A DNA stretch of 64,000 nt from Telopea speciosissima. Lineage: Eukaryota > Streptophyta > Magnoliopsida > Proteales > Proteaceae. Under the pieces are notes generated by a model. That model was not told the origin of the DNA. It made no database searches and worked only from the letters and a program-made list of their open reading frames with translations. Location: assembly GCF_018873765.1 (NCBI RefSeq), contig NC_057925.1, positions 45,353,010-45,417,009 on the forward strand, read 5' to 3'. A program made the translations under genes and the position numbers. Shown here one piece after another: positions 9,756 through 54,670 of the stretch (the first letter of the stretch is position 1; each line of letters opens with the position of its first letter).

Positions 9756-10250
9756 GAGATCGGGTCACATTATTATACGATGGCATTTAATGTGGGCATG
9801 TTCACGATGATCTTGCATCTGCTGAAAGGGCCGATCATCTCCTAAGAGTCCTATCGATCCATGCATTTAATGCTTCCATACTCAAGTCGATGCTTCTCAG
9901 ATCACAAATCACTAGCAATCCCATCATGTCAGATCAAACTACATCCTCCAATTTGCCTATAAATATAAGGTAGGGTTTTTTACAATTACCACCCCAAAAT
10001 CTTTCATATTTATTATTATCCTCCCAAAAATTTTGAAACAACTATTATCCTCCCTGTTGCATATTAATAACTAACTGGCCCCCACCGTTACAGACCTGTA
10101 ACGGCGGGGGTTAGTCGTGATAGTGTGCCGTTGTCACGGATTTTTAAGACCAAAATACCCTTTTTGGGGTGGTAATTGTAAAAACTCCCACCCCATCACC
10201 ACCGTCCCTTCTCCTCCTCCTCCTTCTCCTTCTTCTCCTTCTTCTTTGAG

Positions 10251-10332
10251 TTGCAGAGGCACCAAGCCAGTGTCAACGCCATCGCCTGGGCTCTGCACAG
10301 TTCTTGCTACATCTGCAAGACGGAGAAGACGT
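10251..10332 (+). pseudogene. Captured WD40 gene fragment (LWD/TTG1-like) in left TIR
   Basis: The plus frame from 10251 reads [20 protein letters not shown], which matches a well-conserved stretch of plant LWD1/TTG1-type WD-repeat proteins ([20 protein letters not shown] in typical members). In those proteins it is followed by a GDD-x-ALIWDL strand; here the similarity stops after CYIC. It is only about 27 codons with no start, so it is a fragment. It is the inner end of the left terminal arm and is mirrored in the right arm. I recognise the family; which WD40 gene was the donor cannot be decided. Confidence 0.75.
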
Positions 10333-11275
10333 TAGATCCAATCGATAATATTATTTGAAAGAAATATGTAGTCCAGACTCTCTCTCTCCTATCATCTCTG
10401 CTTCGGATTTTGCTTGTTTTCTTTTTGGCAAATGGCAAATTCGTGTTGCTACACTTATGCCTTTTTTTCGTATTTCTGACTATTTTCCAACACTTTGTTT
10501 TTCCCTGCTCCTTAAAGCATTAAAAAACAATGGGAGTAGAAGAAGAAGCAAAAAGAAAGAAGGAAGGCGGAGACTAAAACAGAGAAGAAGAATAGCAAGC
10601 GACTGACATTCAGAAAAAACAAAAGAAAAAAAAAAAGAAAGAAACAGAAGCAACATCATCAGCTGCATTGCAAAGACCTAGAGCTTTCAAATGGGTCTAA
10701 TGCCCACGACCAGACACCCGAAGGGCGGCGGTGATGGAGTCTCTACCAGATGGTCGATCTTAGGGATATTTCAAGTCCCAATTTTTCCCATCCCCAGAGA
10801 CAACCAAGGAACCCCCACCTGCAACTAAAAACCATCTCCTTGAAGCAATCCCATGTAAATCTCTTTCTTCTCCTTAATGCAAACCCACAGATAATCAATT
10901 TACAAAAATAAATAAATAAAGAACCACCCCTACAACCCAAAACCCATCTCCTTGAAGCACTCCCCTGTAAACTGATTCTCTCTGTTTTGATTTTTTTTTT
11001 TTTTTCTTCTCAAAACCCTCTTTTTTTAAGAAAGCTATTGTCTCCTCCCACCTCCGGCCTCCCTGTGTATTGTCGGTGGGAAGATGGAGTTTTTTGTTTT
11101 TTGAAAAGAAAAATGGAGTTTTTTGCATTTCTGTTTGGTTCCAAATCGGAAGAACCCAGAAAGCTGTTGTTCCAGATCCCAAAGATTCAAGGGTCTTCAG
11201 GTCGAGACAAATGACTGTAGAAAGAACCCAGAAGACAGTTGTTCCAGATCTCAGAAATTCAAGAAGAAACCTCAA

Positions 11276-11332
11276 AGAAGAACTGTGCGGAGCCCAGGGG
11301 ATGGCGTTGACGCTGGCTTGGTGCCTCTGCAA
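11276..11332 (-). pseudogene. Captured WD40 gene fragment, mirror copy in right TIR
   Basis: On the minus strand from about 11332 the frame reads [18 protein letters not shown], the inverted counterpart of the fragment at 10251. It keeps the ancestral Pro in WAPHSS that the left copy has lost, while it has Pro for Ala in NAIPW, so the two arms have diverged. The open frame continues to 10895, but that part is leader-like and low-complexity. Confidence 0.75.
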
Positions 11333-11646
11333 CTCAAAGAAGAAGGAGGAGGAGGAGGAGGAGGAGAAGAAGGGACGGTGGTGATGGGGTGGGCGTTTTT
11401 TACAATTACCACCCCAAAAAGGACATTTTGGTCCTAAAAATCCGTGACAACGGCACTCCTTTCACGACTAACCCCCGCCGTTACGGGTCAGTAAGCGGTG
11501 GGGAGTTAATTATTAGTATGCAACAGAGGGTAACAGTTGTTTCAAAGTTTTTGGGAGGATAATAAGTAGATATGAAAGATTTTGGGGTGATAATTGTAAA
11601 AAACCCTATAAGGTAAGGGTCTCAGGTAAAAGGTTTAGATTCAAAT

Positions 11647-14106: not shown

Positions 14107-14428
14107 CTTCCACCAAAACTACACAGCTGCAAGATTAAGAGACATGACACCTAATAAAGCTTTAAAAAAAGATGGGTCATCTCCCACAACATGATATCCC
14201 TAAGTAACTTAAATTAGTTAAGAAGCTCCCAACTGGGTTTAAGTATGGAGTTTAAATATTAGGGCTAAAACTTGTTTTAAAGAAGAAACATGATCAATGC
14301 CTAAAAGTAGGAACCAAACCTACTTTGCCAATTGTAAATAAATGATTAGTGTCAGATGGCTCTCTCCACGCACCCCCTCTTGCTTCTTCAAGGTGTATGT
14401 GATAATCTAAAGCTCCAAATAAACGAAG

Positions 14429-14890
14429 ATGCAGAGGAAGAATCAACCAAAGGGTTGTGGCACCTTCTGCTGCGGTTGTCGTCTTAGTATTTCGTCGTCG
14501 GAAGAGGCTGAAGGTTCTAATTCCGATAGATACGCGCCGCCGATGTCAAGTCTAGCACATGCCATGGTTCAGGAGAGACTAGATCAGATGATAAGAGAAA
14601 GAGAAGAGGCAAGAAATGAAAGAAGAAGAAACAAGGGAAGGAGAATTAATGAGGGTACCAAGTGCATTATAATGGTAGCCATGGACAAGTACTCTTATGA
14701 TCCTAGAGAAGATTTCAAGGAGTCCATGGTAGAGATGATTATAGCAAATCGGCTAGAAGAGCCAAAAGAACTCCGTTGCCTCTTGAACTGTTTTGTGTCC
14801 ATGAATGCAGAGGAGTATAGACAAATCATACTTGAAGTCTTCCATGAGGTTTGCAGTAACCTTTTCTTGTGTAGTAAATTACGGTTTTAG
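14429..14890 (+). CDS. OFP: OVATE family protein (short OFP), single exon
   Basis: The protein has 153 residues. OVATE family proteins are plant-specific transcriptional co-regulators that repress targets and bind TALE homeodomain and TRM proteins, acting in nucleus and cytoplasm on growth and organ shape. The C-terminal OVATE domain occupies about residues 80-146, with the characteristic strings AMDKYSYDPREDFKESM, EMIIANRL, LRCLLNCFVSMN and YRQIILEVFHEV. The N-terminus has a Cys-rich patch (CGTFCCGC), a Ser/Glu-rich stretch and a basic coiled region (REREEARNERRRNKGRR). The chosen ATG is the first in frame after upstream stops. OVATE genes are usually intronless, which fits. No neighbour is functionally linked; an hAT element lies 0.32 kb upstream and a fold-back element 0.3 kb downstream. 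The subgroup within the family cannot be fixed without a tree. Confidence 0.9.
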   Translation: MQRKNQPKGCGTFCCGCRLSISSSEEAEGSNSDRYAPPMSSLAHAMVQERLDQMIREREEARNERRRNKGRRINEGTKCIIMVAMDKYSYDPREDFKESMVEMIIANRLEEPKELRCLLNCFVSMNAEEYRQIILEVFHEVCSNLFLCSKLRF

Positions 14891-46662: not shown

Positions 46663-48214
46663 CTAAATAGTCTTTAACCCCATCTTCCCCGTAGTTTTGA
46701 ATGTTCGATCTTTGTTCAATCCCTTTATAAGGGTATCTGCCGTATTATCCTTCGATCTCACATCAATCAAAGTGATAATCCCTTGTTCTGTTCTATAATT
46801 CAGCATGGCCTGTTTCAGCCTGATGTGTCTCCTCTTACCATTAAAGAGTGAGTTATTCACAATCGTCTTTGTTGCTTGATTATCATAGAATATAGATATG
46901 GAGTTTAACTTAAAACTCTTCAATGGAATATCCATGATCAGATCCTTCATCCACTCTACTTCATCTTCTGCAGAGGCTAGAGCATAAAGTTTTGATTCCA
47001 TAGATGACAGAGCAATACAAGTCTGTCTCTTGGACTTCCATGCTACAGCTGCTCCTCCTAATGTAAATACATAATCACTAGTGGATCTGCTGTCTCCCAA
47101 ATCTGAGCACCAAGATGCATCAGAATATCCTTCCAAAGTTGGAGGATGTCCAGTATAACATAGAGCATAACCTAGAGTACCCTTAAGGTATGTCATCAGC
47201 CTCGTTAGGGCATCCCAATGCTCTTTTCTAAGATTACTAGTGAAACGACTCAGCATGCCTACCTTAAAGGCTATATCTGGCCTAGTGTAATTCATTGCAT
47301 ACATGAGACTACCAATCAGTCTAGAATATTCTAACTGATTCACGGTGTCGCCTGTGTTAGGTTTCAACCGTTTGTTATAGTCATAGGGTGTCTCAATCAG
47401 TTTACACTCACTGTATCCCCAACTAGAAAGTAGCCTCTCAATGTAATGAGACTGACTAAGGGTGATCCCTTACTCGTCGAAGCTTACTCTCATTCCAAGA
47501 ACGGTGTCTACCACACCAAGATCTTTCATGTCGAATTCTTTAGACAATGTTTTTTTAATGTCACTCACTACAGAGAGATCAGAACCTAGAATCAACATGT
47601 CATCTACATACAAGCAAATAATCGCGACTTTGTTTGACTCAAACCAAAAGTAAAGGTACTTATCCGAGTCGCTAGTCCAAAAACCAAGGCTCTTTACTAT
47701 CTTTTCAAATTTCTCATGCCACAATTTAGGTGCTTGTTTAAGACCATAGAGAGATTTTTTTAATTTACAAACTCTTTTTTCAGAACCTTCCATGACAAAC
47801 CCTTCAGGTTGGTTCATGTAGATTTCTTCTATTAGGTCTCCATTAAGGAAAGCTATTTTTACATCCATTTGATGCACAACATAGTGCTTAATAGATGCTA
47901 TGGCAAGAAGAATCCTTATCGTTGCCAAATGGCAGACCGGGGAGTAGATGTCAAAATAATCTATCCCTCTCACCTGGGTATAGCCCTTAGCTACTAACCG
48001 TGCTTTATACCTGGCTATAGACCCATCTGGATTAAGTTTCTTCTTCAATACTCACTTACACCCTATTGTCTTAGTCCCTTTAGGCAGATCAACAAGGTGT
48101 CAGGTCTCATTTTGCATTAAGGAGCTCATTTCCTCATCAATGGCTTCTTTTCATAGCAGTGAGTCCCTAGATCTCATCGCTTTCTTATAGGTGGATGGAT
48201 CAACCTCTAAATGG
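46663..48214 (-). pseudogene. Ty1-copia pol: reverse transcriptase and RNase H, with stop codons, 5'-truncated
   Basis: A single minus-strand frame runs from 48214 to 46663. It contains RT motifs (RYKARLVAKGYTQ, DIYSPVCHLATIRILLAIA, QMDVKIAFLNGDL, SLYGLKQAPKLWHEKF, ICLYVDDMLILG with the catalytic YVDD) and RNase H (LEGYSDASWCSD, AVAWKSKRQTCIALSSMESK, FYDNQATKTIVNNSLFNGKRRHI). Four in-frame stops occur: TAA after VSFDE at 47467-47469, and three TGA codons at positions where copia proteins have Trp (LLxKEAI, NETxHL, GCKxVL) between 48040 and 48150. The 5' part (integrase, gag) is missing because the SIRE-like LTR inserted at 48215. Not functional. Confidence 0.92.
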
Positions 48215-49631: not shown

Positions 49632-49684
49632 GGGAGCTCAAAACTAAGACCATATTTATCTTTATATTGTGCTAAAAATGATCC

Positions 49685-51514
49685 ATGGCATCATCATCTT
49701 CTACACACAAAATTGAGGGGCTCAACACTTCTAGGCCACCATACTTTGATGGTGAAGGATTTGCCTATTGGAAGTGTAGATTTAAAAATTATGTGTGTGC
49801 TCATGATATTGATGTATGGACTGTGATTGAGGAAGGTCCCTTCCAAATCACAAAAGAAGTTGGAAAAAAAATTATACCTAAGGAGAAATCAGAATGGACA
49901 CCATCGGATAAAACACACATACAACAAAACTACAAAACTATTGCATTCCTACAATGTGCTCTTAGTGAAAAGAAATTCAATAGAACTAGTATGTGTAACA
50001 CGGCTAAAGAGATGTTTGATACTCTTGTGGTTACCTATGAAGAAACATCACAAGTTAAACAACTCAAAATTGACAAGCTTATTCATAAATATGAATTGTT
50101 TAAAATGTTTGATAATGAAAGTATTTCTAACATGTTTACTAGGTTTACTAATATTATTTACAAGTTGAAAAGCTTAGGAAAGGAATACACCAAAGCGGAG
50201 AATGTAAGGAAGATCTTGAGATCACTACCCTTCAAATGGAGACCAATGGTGACCGCCATCAAACAAGCAAAAGATCTAGAGGTCCTACACATGGATGAAT
50301 TGATGGGTACTCTACAAACCCATGAAGTTGAACTCCTTGAAGATGATAAAGTCATAGAAGTAAAAGAACCAAGGAGAAAGTCCATCGCACTCAAGACCTC
50401 TTGTGAATCCGAAGAAGAAGAAAGCGATGAAGAAGATGTAGAGAAAGAAATCTCTCTAATCACAAGGAAATTTCAAAAATTCCTAAGAAAGAGAGGAGGA
50501 AGATTCTACAAAGGACAACCATCAAAAGAAATCAAAGGTAAAACATACACAAAGGAAAAACCTTTCAATACTAACAAGGACATTGTGTGTTATAAATGTA
50601 GAAAGCCCGGACACTTCAAAACCGAGTGCCCCAAGCTAAAAGGAAAGGAAAGTAGAAAGAAAAAGGCTTGCACCGCCGAGATATCATGGGATTCAAGTGA
50701 TAGTGAAGAAGAAAATAATGAATCCGATGAAGAGACCGTCAACTTAGCACTAATGGCTCACAACAATGATGATGACGAGGTAAACTCTCCCTATCATAGC
50801 TCCTTATCGGTTTGCAATGATGATTTAGAATATGAAGAACTTCAAGAGGCCTTTAAAGAACTTTATAATGTAAGTCTCCAAGATGAAGCTTCTAAAAAGG
50901 CCTTAGAAAAAGAAGTAGCCAATCTTCTACACAAAATTGATGAGTTGACTTCACATGCACACAATCTAGAAGAAGAAAATAAGAATCTAACCTCCACATT
51001 GCACACCTTTACTAAGGGTCAAAAGACCTTAGATACATTATTAGGAAACCCACAAAAGGGACCTCAAAATAAAGAAGGTCTAGGCTATGATGGTAAAAGA
51101 TCACATCAAGCCAAAGGAAAGGAAAAGATGAGAACTCCAAAATAGAGAAAATCAAACCAAGGCCAAACCTTACATCCCATTGTATGTGAAAAATATCATT
51201 TACCCGGGCATGAAACTTGCATCGGTGCCTATATTGATGGTAAGGTGATATATAAAGAATCGGATACAAAAAGAAAGCATCATGCATTCTACTATACTTC
51301 TCAAAAGAGGACTGACAAACCTCAAAGAGAATTTGTGCCCCAAAGGCCACAAAAGCAATATCCCAAGCCTAAGCCATTTCAACCATATAGGCAAAATACT
51401 TCATATATGCCATATGCACCCCAAAGACCTCAAAATCACTATAGACCAAACACATACACTAGGCCCCATGATCACCAAAGGGCCTATATCAACAATAAGT
51501 CTTACACATCGTAA
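49685..51514 (+). pseudogene. SIRE-like copia gag (capsid and nucleocapsid)
   Basis: An open frame of 486 codons from ATG 49685 to TAG 51143-51145. The N-terminal region (PPYFDGEGFAYWKCRFKNYV) and KLIHKYELFKMFDNESISNM are the UBN2-type gag capsid. The nucleocapsid knuckle CYKCRKPGHFKTEC (C-x2-C-x4-H-x4-C) lies near residue 302, followed by acidic and coiled-coil stretches (YEELQEAFKELYNVSLQDEA). The same frame continues after the TAG to 51514 with a degenerate second knuckle (CEKYHLPGHETC) and a Pro/Gln/Tyr-rich region, so the TAG is probably a mutation and not the original gag end. Capsid sequence itself looks well preserved. Confidence 0.9.
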
Positions 51515-54354
51515 AATTACTATGTTCCATATAGACACTATGAATTTCAAGGACCAAGAAGAACCCAAAGATCATTTGGACATAAAAAACCTACATCTAT
51601 CACACCTATAACACAAAATCAAAATTCTAGAAGAGCTTGGATACCTAAGGGTATGATCAATCCTAACCTCAATGGACCTATGAGATTATGGGGACTAACA
51701 TATAATTGATTGCTTTCGTAGGTATGCTTGAAGAGCAAGGAAGCAATTGAATGGTATATTGATAGTAGATGCTCCAAGCATATGACGGCTAACCCCAATC
51801 TATTCACCAAGCTAAACAAGTACAATGGAGGAATGGTGATATTTGGGGACAATAGCAAAGGAAAAATCATTGGCATCGGTGAAATCACCATTGAAGGTAC
51901 AATCATATCCAATGTACGCCTAGTTGACAATTTAAAGTATAATTTGCTTAGTGTGAGTCAACTATGTAAGATAGGATATAGTGTCATTTTCAAAACCTCT
52001 CATTGCTTAGTGAAAAATTCAAATAATAAGACTATCTTGAAAGGAATTAGGAAAAATAATATCTATATTTGCTTATTGGATGAAGCTAATTCTAGTAATA
52101 CATGTCTTATGTCAAATGATGTTGATCCCTACCTATGGCATAGTAAATTACGACATGTTAATGTAAAAGTGATTAAGACCATCGCATCTAAGAATTTAGT
52201 TAGAAACTTACCCAAACTCAAATTTGAAAAAGACCATGTATGTGATGTTTGTCAAAGAGAAAAACAAACCAAGGTATCTCATAAATCTAAAAATGAAGTG
52301 TCTACCACTAGACCCTTAGAATTACTACACTTGGATTTGTTTGGACCTATTACTACACCTAGCCTAGGCGGTTCAAGATACACTTTTGTAATAGTTGATG
52401 ATTTCTCTCGCTTCACATGGACTCTATTTTTAAAACATAAAGATGAAGCCTTTGATGAATTTGCATCTCTATGTAAGAGAATACAAAACCAAAAGGGATA
52501 TCTCATAACAACCATTAGAAGTGATCATGGAGGAGAATTTGACAATCTCAACCAATTTGGGAGTTATTGCAATGAACAAGGCATAACCCATAACTTTTTC
52601 GCTCCTAGAACACCTCAATCCAATGGGGTGGTTGAAAGAAAGAATAGATCACTCTAAGATACCGCTAGAATAATGATAAATGAATACTCTCTTCCAAAAT
52701 ATTTTTGGGCCGAAGCGGTCAATACGGCTTGCTATGTGTTAAATCGTGTGTTAATTAGACCTATATTACTCAAAACACCCTATGAACTCTATCATAATAA
52801 ACTACCTAAAGTTGATTACTTTAAAGTGTTTAGGTGTATATGCTATATATTGAATACTAAGGATAACTTAGGAAAATTTGATGCTAAAGCTGATGATGGC
52901 ATTTTTCTTGGATACTCTTCAAATAGTCGAGCCTATAGAGTCTTCAATAAGAAAAGCTTGATTATTGAAGAATCAATGAATATAAAATTTGATGAATCTC
53001 TTCCTAAAGATAGACACAAACCATTGGTTGACGATGATGATACATTTGTTGAGATTAGGGAGAGCATAGAAAATTTCTCTCTAAGAGAACCCGAAGACCA
53101 ACCAAAGAATCTATCCAAAGAGGTTAGACCTTGGAAAGACCATCCCTTGGATCATGTCATTGGAGACTTAGACAAAGAAATCCAAACTAGATCTAAAACT
53201 CAAGACATTTGCAATAATATTGCCTTCATATCCAAAATTGAACCTAAAAACATAAAAGAAGCATTGGAAGATAGTGATTGGATAATAGCTATGCAAGAAG
53301 AGCTCCATCAATTTGAAAGAAACAATGTTTGGGAGCTTGTCCCAAAACCCAAAAATCATTCTATTATAGGAGTCAAATGGGTGTTTAGAAACAAACTTGA
53401 TGAAGATGGATCAATTATTAGAAACAAAGTTAGATTAGTTGCCAAAGGATATAATCAATAAGAAATGATAGATTTTGATGAACCTATGCACCGGTAGCAA
53501 GACTAGAATCTATTAGAATGCTACTTGCTTTTGCATGTCATAAAAATTTTAAGCTGTACCAAATGGATGTCAAAAGTGTTTTTTTAAATGGTTTTATCAT
53601 GGAGAAAGTATATGTTACACAACCTCCTGGATTTGAGGATACAAAATATTCGGATCATGTCTTCAAACTTAACAAAGCTCTCTATGGACTCAAACAAGCT
53701 CCTAGAGCTTGGTATGAGAGATTGAGTGAATTCCTAATCCAAAGTGGATTTCAAATGGGTAAGGTTGATATAACTTTATTTGTGAAACATAAAGGAAAAG
53801 ACTCTATTATTGTGCAAATATATGTTGATGATATTATATTTGGATCCACCAATGAAAATCTTTGTGTTGAATTTAGCAAATGCATGAGTGATGAATTTGA
53901 AATGAGTTTGATGGGTGAACTAAATTTTTTCTTAGGACTTCAAATTAAGCAAACCAAAAATGGAATCTTTATATGTCAAACTAAATACACTAAAGAACTT
54001 CTTAAGAAATTTGATTTTGATGGACAAAAGTCATCTAGCACCCCCATGAGTACCTCTCTAAAGCTATCTAAAGATGAGAAAGGTACTCCCATAGACCCTA
54101 CACGCTATAGAGGCATGATTGGTAGCCTTCTATATCTCACCGCTAGTAGGCCAGACATCATGTTTAGTGTGTGTGCTTGTGCTAGATTCCAAGCCAACCC
54201 AATGCAATCCCACTTTAGTGCCGTTAAAAGGATCTTTAAATATCTTAAAGGTACTACAAATGTAGGATTATGGTACCCAATGAACCAAAATTTTGATTTA
54301 ATAAGCTTTTCGGATGCCGACTTTGTAGGGTGCCATCTTGATCGCAAGAGTACA
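51515..54354 (+). pseudogene. SIRE-like copia pol (protease, integrase, RT, part of RNase H), interrupted
   Basis: The frame is the same as gag up to about 53460. Protease has WYIDSRCSKHM, where the catalytic DSG is DSR. The integrase zinc-finger HHCC (WHSKLRHVNVK, CDVCQREKQTK) and the DDE core (LHLDLFGP, RSDHGGEF, NGVVERKN) are visible. RT starts at KWVFRNKLDEDGSI and, after a stop and a one-base deletion near 53485, continues in another frame with ALYGLKQAPRAWYERL and QIYVDDIIFGS. RNase H begins (LISFSDADFVGC) and is cut after DRKST by a CACTA transposon. In-frame stops lie at 51512, 51707, 51719, 52655 (Gln to TAA in NRSLQDT) and 53459. The element is dead; its 3' end and 3' LTR are not in the window. 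Confidence 0.92.
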
Positions 54355-54367
54355 CACTACAAGAAAT

Positions 54368-54670
54368 TGGGTCTACGATGGCGTTTTTAAACGCCGCTAT
54401 AGATCCCAAAAACGCCGCTGTATCATTCAACGACGTTTCTACTTTGTGCCGTAGAAACTCGGCGAAGGTACCGCCGTTTTGTACAACGGCGTTTTTGAGA
54501 GTGATCTGTATGTGCCTTTACGCGGCGTTTAATAAACGCCGTGGAAAATTTCCTACAACGACGTTTTAAAAGTGCCGAGGTAGGCACTGAATTTCTAATT
54601 GTTGCGACGTTTGTAGCAAATGCCGGGGCTTAACACTAAAACGACGTTTATAAAAGCGCCGCTGTAGGCA
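54368..54670. repeat. CACTA subterminal repeat region
   Basis: At least ten short GC-rich words (AACGCCGCT, AACGGCGTTT, ACGCGGCGTTT, AACGACGTTT, GCGCCGCTGTAGG) stand out against AT-rich surroundings. In En/Spm elements such repeats bind the TNPA protein. Confidence 0.8.

Follow-up and report, generated by a model that had tools for sequence, protein, structure and literature searches.

Host WD40 coding sequence in the terminal inverted repeats of a Pack-MULE lineage of Telopea speciosissima: a probable history of one capture, cargo replacement and arm copying

In a 64,000-nucleotide stretch of the Telopea speciosissima genome (contig NC_057925.1, G000:C10:45353010-45417009; hereafter the window), a non-autonomous Mutator-like transposable element (MULE) at window positions 9973-11606 carries a piece of a host WD40-repeat gene innermost in both of its terminal inverted repeats (TIRs). 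Comparison with relatives across the 823-Mb assembly (1287 contigs), to which all genome searches below refer, indicates that this arrangement probably arose through a single capture from an LWD-type locus on contig C3, after which the interior of the element was replaced while the TIR and an adjoining remnant of the gene (the stump) were kept, and the stump was copied into the second arm. With a fixed outer junction, a known donor and surviving intermediates, these elements form a natural pedigree of capture. They suggest that the persistent unit is the TIR together with its adjacent stump, the interior being replaceable, and they show coding DNA of the host incorporated into a mobile terminal repeat.

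The window element is bracketed by an exact 9-bp target site duplication (TSD), TATAAGGTA, at 9964-9972 and 11607-11615, read directly and checked by program, and its arms measure 333 bp (9973-10305) and 329 bp (11278-11606); the original prediction, a Pack-MULE with a perfect 9-bp duplication and arms of about 330 bp, was accurate in these respects. On the plus strand, the 5' arm consists of 275 bp of outer family TIR (9973-10247), ending inward in a CTT-rich tract, and leads into a 70-bp stump (10248-10317; G000:C3:565502-565571) whose first 58 bp are common to both arms. The 3' arm mirrors it on the minus strand with an inverted 58-bp stump (11278-11335; C3:565502-565559) and 271 bp of outer TIR (11336-11606). 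Between the two arms the outer TIRs are 90% identical over 271 columns and the stumps agree at 55 of 58 positions. Innermost in each arm stands gene sequence (GAGTTGCAGAGGCACCAAGCCAG...) encoding ...(A/P)WA(L/P)HSS of the WD40 gene, and the earlier claim that the same gene piece lies innermost in both arms is borne out by the 70 and 58 bp matched to the C3 gene. That the piece belongs to the TIR and not just to the cargo was correct for the stumps; the interior (10320-11272, plus strand, limits approximate) is no LWD cargo at all, being an unrelated dispersed repeat designated D2. An inverted copy of the terminal 23-mer, with two mismatches, lies at 10166-10188 (minus strand) in the 5' arm and has its 3'-arm counterpart at 11393-11415, about 190-216 bp from the end in each case, and each arm could fold on itself like a small miniature inverted-repeat transposable element (MITE).

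Pack-MULEs were reportedly treated by Jiang et al. in 2004. The window element has the long TIRs, the TSD of 8-10 bp and the captured gene fragment with an identifiable parent that mark this group, and it appears to encode no transposase of its own: among stop-to-stop frames of at least 150 aa, the only one overlapping it is an antisense frame of 188 aa that spans TIR, stump and repeat. Its putative placement in the MULE superfamily rests on the lengths of its TIRs and TSD. Tandem-TIR MULEs of types 1 and 2 contain, inside the first TIR, a second one with similarity over at least 100 bp (PMC3310237), whereas the recurrence here is limited to a terminal motif of about 23-31 bp, which is inverted.

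By sequence similarity, the donor is the LWD-type gene on C3 and not its paralog on C8. The C3 gene (L042) is intact, with an open frame of 352 codons against 349 in the paralog. It matches the 5' stump at 94.3% over 70 nt (E 4.6e-26) and the 3' stump at 96.6% over 58 nt (E 2.9e-22). The paralog reaches 90.0% and 91.4%, and one distant WD40 gene only 73-75%, so that a genomic WD40 donor closer than the family background, as the original prediction anticipated, does exist. In the C3 frame, the captured stretch starts at codon 268. What had been described as a host exon within the TIR is indeed host coding sequence, though no whole exon: it comes from the final 258 bp of the gene, which has a single long open frame. 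Likewise, the proposed LWD/TTG1-type WD-repeat origin stands as to the WD40 gene, since Pfam finds WD40 repeats in the donor protein, and shifts as to subfamily, the protein being presumably of LWD/AN11-type rather than TTG1-type likeness. Joint capture of the LWD piece with D2 from C8, where the paralog and a D2 copy are about 3.8 kb apart, was considered and rejected because the stumps fit the C3 gene better (94-97% against 90-91%) and because D2 is only 82% alike and is dispersed.

A genome-wide protein search returned 41 places, comprising 37 transposon arms, the two LWD-type genes and two distant WD40 genes. Independently, a 27-mer DNA pattern spanning the junction of TIR and gene (up to three mismatches) gave 38 matches, namely the same 37 arms plus the C3 gene, and its reversed control gave none. 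Within the divergence that the pattern tolerates, arms beyond three mismatches escaping it, the census therefore stands at no fewer than 37 arms tagged with the gene piece, in 24 elements. The junction ...CTTT|GAGTTGCAG falls at one base position, substitutions aside, in 36 arms of 23 elements and again in the truncated copy L008. Because one junction of TIR and gene is common to all 37 tagged arms, a single capture is favored. Two separate captures of the same gene piece, one for each arm, would account for its presence in each arm with unlike inner ends (70 against 58 bp), but are highly improbable, principally because the outer junction is identical throughout. Against them also stand the forms with one tagged arm and the intermediate forms, as well as the single difference, in 56 positions, between the stump majority and the C3 gene, at which the C8 paralog has the stump base.

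The tagged elements fall into classes best described in C3 coordinates. In S1 (L063-L067, n=5), one arm continues from 565502 to between 565745 and 565901 (244-400 bp), jumps to between 567257 and 567348, and runs on to 568270; this right end is found in 4 of the 5, L063 aligning up to 567857, and the breakpoints of L063 and L065 are unlike those of the other three. Given that these pieces are collinear with the C3 locus, they are read as the internally deleted remains of a single captured block, and the captured unit was most likely C3:565502-568270 (about 2.77 kb), comprising the last 258 bp of coding sequence and downstream DNA. In S2 (L013, L014, L017, L061 and L062; n=5), a 100-bp stump (565502-565601) in one arm is followed by about 93 bp of a locus "P" on C2 (mapped in L014) and then by a gene piece "Y" of about 1 kb, the likely parent of which is a gene at C8:59.03 Mb with 94-98% identity. 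A 381-bp gap relative to that parent resembled an intron and suggested intron loss or RNA-mediated capture; this was rejected, since the donor frame continues through the gap and the gap ends share AGT, and the gap is taken as an internal deletion.

Stumps in both arms characterize 13 of the 24 tagged elements. S3 (L015, L060, L074, L027 and L020; n=5) has 56-bp stumps in both arms, except that one stump of L060, which is internally deleted, aligns over 38 bp. Each stump is followed by an inverted piece running from 566561 downwards for 101-104 bp in one arm and 40-43 bp in the other. The interior of S3 holds P, mapped in L015, together with the cargo "Z", a fragment of a PC-esterase gene (PF13839) whose best genomic match and likely parent lies at C10:61.29 Mb (92-94%), although the true donor may have been lost. 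S4 (the window element, L002-L007 and L008; n=8) has stumps of 70 and 58 bp around D2, seven copies being complete and L008 truncated with one arm visible. Between S2 and S3 stands the hybrid hybC2, with a 56-bp and a 100-bp stump: its 56-bp arm runs into inverted 566561-566280, a stretch inside the C3 block, while its 100-bp arm meets P at the S2-type junction and contains a longer part of the P locus. Two secondary junctions tie the classes together, LWD|P being common to S2 (5 of 5) and hybC2, and LWD|566561 to S3 (10 of 10 arms) and hybC2. The remnant varies in length on its inner side only, which is consistent with a fixed TIR side and an interior that was lost and replaced.

The order of events may be envisaged as follows. 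A non-autonomous MULE would first have captured the C3 block beside one TIR, fixing the outer junction. Internal breaks would then have been filled with new DNA, as we infer by repair that switched templates, between inverted arms or between sister elements, or alternatively by end joining, so that the interior was swapped and the TIR side spared; the readable junctions share 0-3 bp, and some contain a few unexplained bases. TIR and shrinking gene stump would have persisted through successive swaps of cargo from other loci, until the second end received TIR and stump when one arm was repaired on the template of its counterpart or of a sister element. Arm-to-arm repair is the suggested route of the stump into the second arm because the two arms are inverted homologs. 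The TIR would thereby have been lengthened by host coding DNA, and the longer ends would still transpose, giving copies with TSDs of their own. S4 arms share an inverted stump of 58 bp, and in S3 the shared part comprises 56 bp and about 40 bp more; to account for both, arm copying must have occurred at least twice, or once with separate trimming afterwards.

A tree of the outer TIR from 55 arms, in which only 5 of the 52 inner branches are starred and for which the bootstrap had not settled, unites the arms of S2, S3, S4 and the hybrid (37 arms; 99/96) and, separately, the 10 S3 arms (97/94), while the arms of S1 and of elements free of the LWD piece lie outside the larger group. This tree of 55 arms does not point to a template arm, since the stump-free arms of S2 share the S2/S3/S4/hybrid group. 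Elements with the same TIR and no LWD piece are represented by L072 and L073, and further such untagged places occur among the matches listed. In these LWD-free elements a 10-bp stretch of the inner TIR (CCTCTGCAAC) matches the first stump bases in inverted form, an orientation unfit for simple priming.

Several results count against this history or are neutral toward it. None of the five S1 copies retains the captured block in full, and D2 lacks a close donor, the best match being 82%. Divergence from the donors does not order the captures as proposed, the Kimura two-parameter distance of the non-coding S1 block being 0.047-0.059 as against identities of 94-98% for the S2 cargo and 92-94% for the S3 cargo. 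Among 22 tagged elements tested for TSDs, a test that left out L008, 14 have perfect duplications of 9-10 bp, two have perfect ones of 8 bp, three have 8 of 9 matching and three have no clear one; poly-A/T cases are weak, since end shifts of a few bases were permitted, and no TSD is visible by eye in hybC2. The clear TSDs nevertheless bear on another reading, in which the element is a composite of two inverted MITE-like units of about 216 bp, each with its own inverted ends, that flank a host segment and move jointly. The inverted terminal 23-mer at the inner side of each arm is what such units would show, its four window matches (two of them the element ends) exceeding an expectation of zero. 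Yet TSDs, where clear, bracket the whole element; the gene stump lies outside the 216-bp unit and is common to the tagged arms all the same; and arms equal in kind and length (274-290 bp) occur in LWD-free L072 and L073. The composite is quite unlikely, though no genome-wide search was aimed at stand-alone 216-bp units.

Beyond the single capture and arm copying proposed for this lineage, a more general process may tentatively be suggested, in which MULE TIRs grow inward as by a ratchet: cargo turnover leaves a host stump, and arm repair copies TIR and stump to the other end. Under such a ratchet the stump would have spread at least twice in the window lineage, the inner ends of S3 and S4 being different, and the enlarged TIR would have gone on moving with new gene fragments. 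If so, the long TIRs of plant MULEs would be partly fossil host sequence.

What the paired stumps do, if anything, is a separate matter. As a default for function, and one compatible with the pedigree, the stump is likely a neutral passenger, a leftover of old cargo that serves neither transposition nor regulation and came to lie in both arms as a by-product of repair. Copy-to-copy similarity in S2-S4 agrees with this, stumps (94-95%) lying between or near the values for TIR (89-95%) and interior (96-98%), as do the many TIR places without the tag among the matches listed. Nothing strong speaks against it, although the 13 of 24 elements with both-arm forms might hint at better mobility. Alternatively, paired stumps might be kept because their transcript, folded as a hairpin, is a source of small RNAs directed at the LWD-type gene or at the TIR family. 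In the predicted fold of a full-length transcript, 313 of the 333 bases of the 5' arm, among them 57 of the 58 in the stump, find partners in the other arm. The stumps match the C3 gene exactly over runs of 23 nt (5') and 36 nt (3'), and such runs reach 38 nt among the other S3 and S4 copies. Relative to the consensus of the respective class, C-to-T changes per GC site are also higher in TIRs (0.028-0.087) than in interiors (0.010-0.023; four of five copies for S1), as expected of methylated repeats, but transversions are raised in the TIRs too. Moreover, stumps are no more alike among S2-S4 copies than interiors are, and C-to-T changes per stump do not differ significantly between both-arm and one-arm classes (1.19 against 0.70; permutation p=0.09; 36 of 37 stumps, the 3' stump of L060 with its internal deletion being dropped and L008 counted as both-arm). 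Retention for such a regulatory role thus appears unlikely, and the modeled hairpin transcript could conceivably affect the donor gene; the lineage does offer a concrete case for asking whether TIR hairpins send small RNAs back on a donor gene. In S1, TIRs are 75-84% alike as compared with 96% for the LWD coding piece. That TIRs vary more than the adjoining captured DNA could reflect methylation decay, exchange of TIRs between elements, or both.

That captured DNA can enter extended MULE TIRs is already in print (PMC3310237, section 4.2, citing Hanada 2009 and Lisch 2002), and the acquisition of Pack-MULE cargo is termed unresolved there and in the abstract of PMC8277862. The window lineage resembles Pack-MULEs and extended-TIR MULEs in being non-autonomous, with long TIRs, a 9-bp TSD and a captured gene fragment. 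In it, the donor gene survives beside precursors tagged in one arm, a hybrid and two classes tagged in both arms, which lets the process be followed stage by stage. The stepwise pedigree is therefore the new part, as compared with the statement in PMC3310237 rather than with the examples of Hanada 2009 and Lisch 2002; the titles and abstract openings that searches of open-licence papers brought up describe no comparable stepwise series, nor do passages of PMC4858842 and PMC8903248 or the abstract of PMC9168764. Tomato PM-ZIBP, a tandem-TIR MULE, is likewise an amplified Pack-MULE family with altered TIR architecture, but there the whole TIR is duplicated in tandem, whereas here the TIR is lengthened by host coding DNA (PMC3310237). 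In maize, according to the passages available from PMC3276141, Mu1 retains 41 bp of a fragment likely captured in Mu2, and Mu13 (TIR 223 bp) carries, like the window lineage, WD40 gene pieces; these are two different gene stretches situated in the interior, and those passages place no captured piece in both TIRs. For animal Pack-TIRs, gap filling and fork switching (FoSTeST) are the models in the excerpted text of PMC8277862, which share with the present proposal microhomology-guided template switching as the source of captured DNA; they concern animal elements, and that text contains no series of stumps within TIRs. Similarly, maize Mu killer is an inverted duplication with Mu TIR sequence and a proposed hairpin RNA; it silences MuDR, while the window hairpin, known from a predicted fold, would carry a host gene piece (PMC3440606).

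Three stand-alone D2 copies, on C8, C4 and C5, are 81-82% identical to the interior of the window element, and none of them gave a match to a TIR of its family. These copies (L009 1299-2822, L010 1124-2345 and L011 1129-2631) are mutually 79-85% alike and contain internal repeated units; a short inverted GTTAAACGCAAC-type motif lies near their ends, and D2 is perhaps another DNA transposon. Elsewhere in the window, an OVATE-family protein gene occupies 14426-14887 on the plus strand (PF04844, E 3.7e-21), about 2.8 kb from the MULE. Two copia-type retrotransposon coding regions, split over several frames, lie at 46663-48051 (minus strand) and 49682-54390 (plus strand), the second recognized from gag and integrase by Pfam and the first by eye only. 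A frame at 295-1431 on the minus strand has a CCHC_4 zinc knuckle (PF14392) and perhaps belongs to an element of the long interspersed nuclear element (LINE) type.
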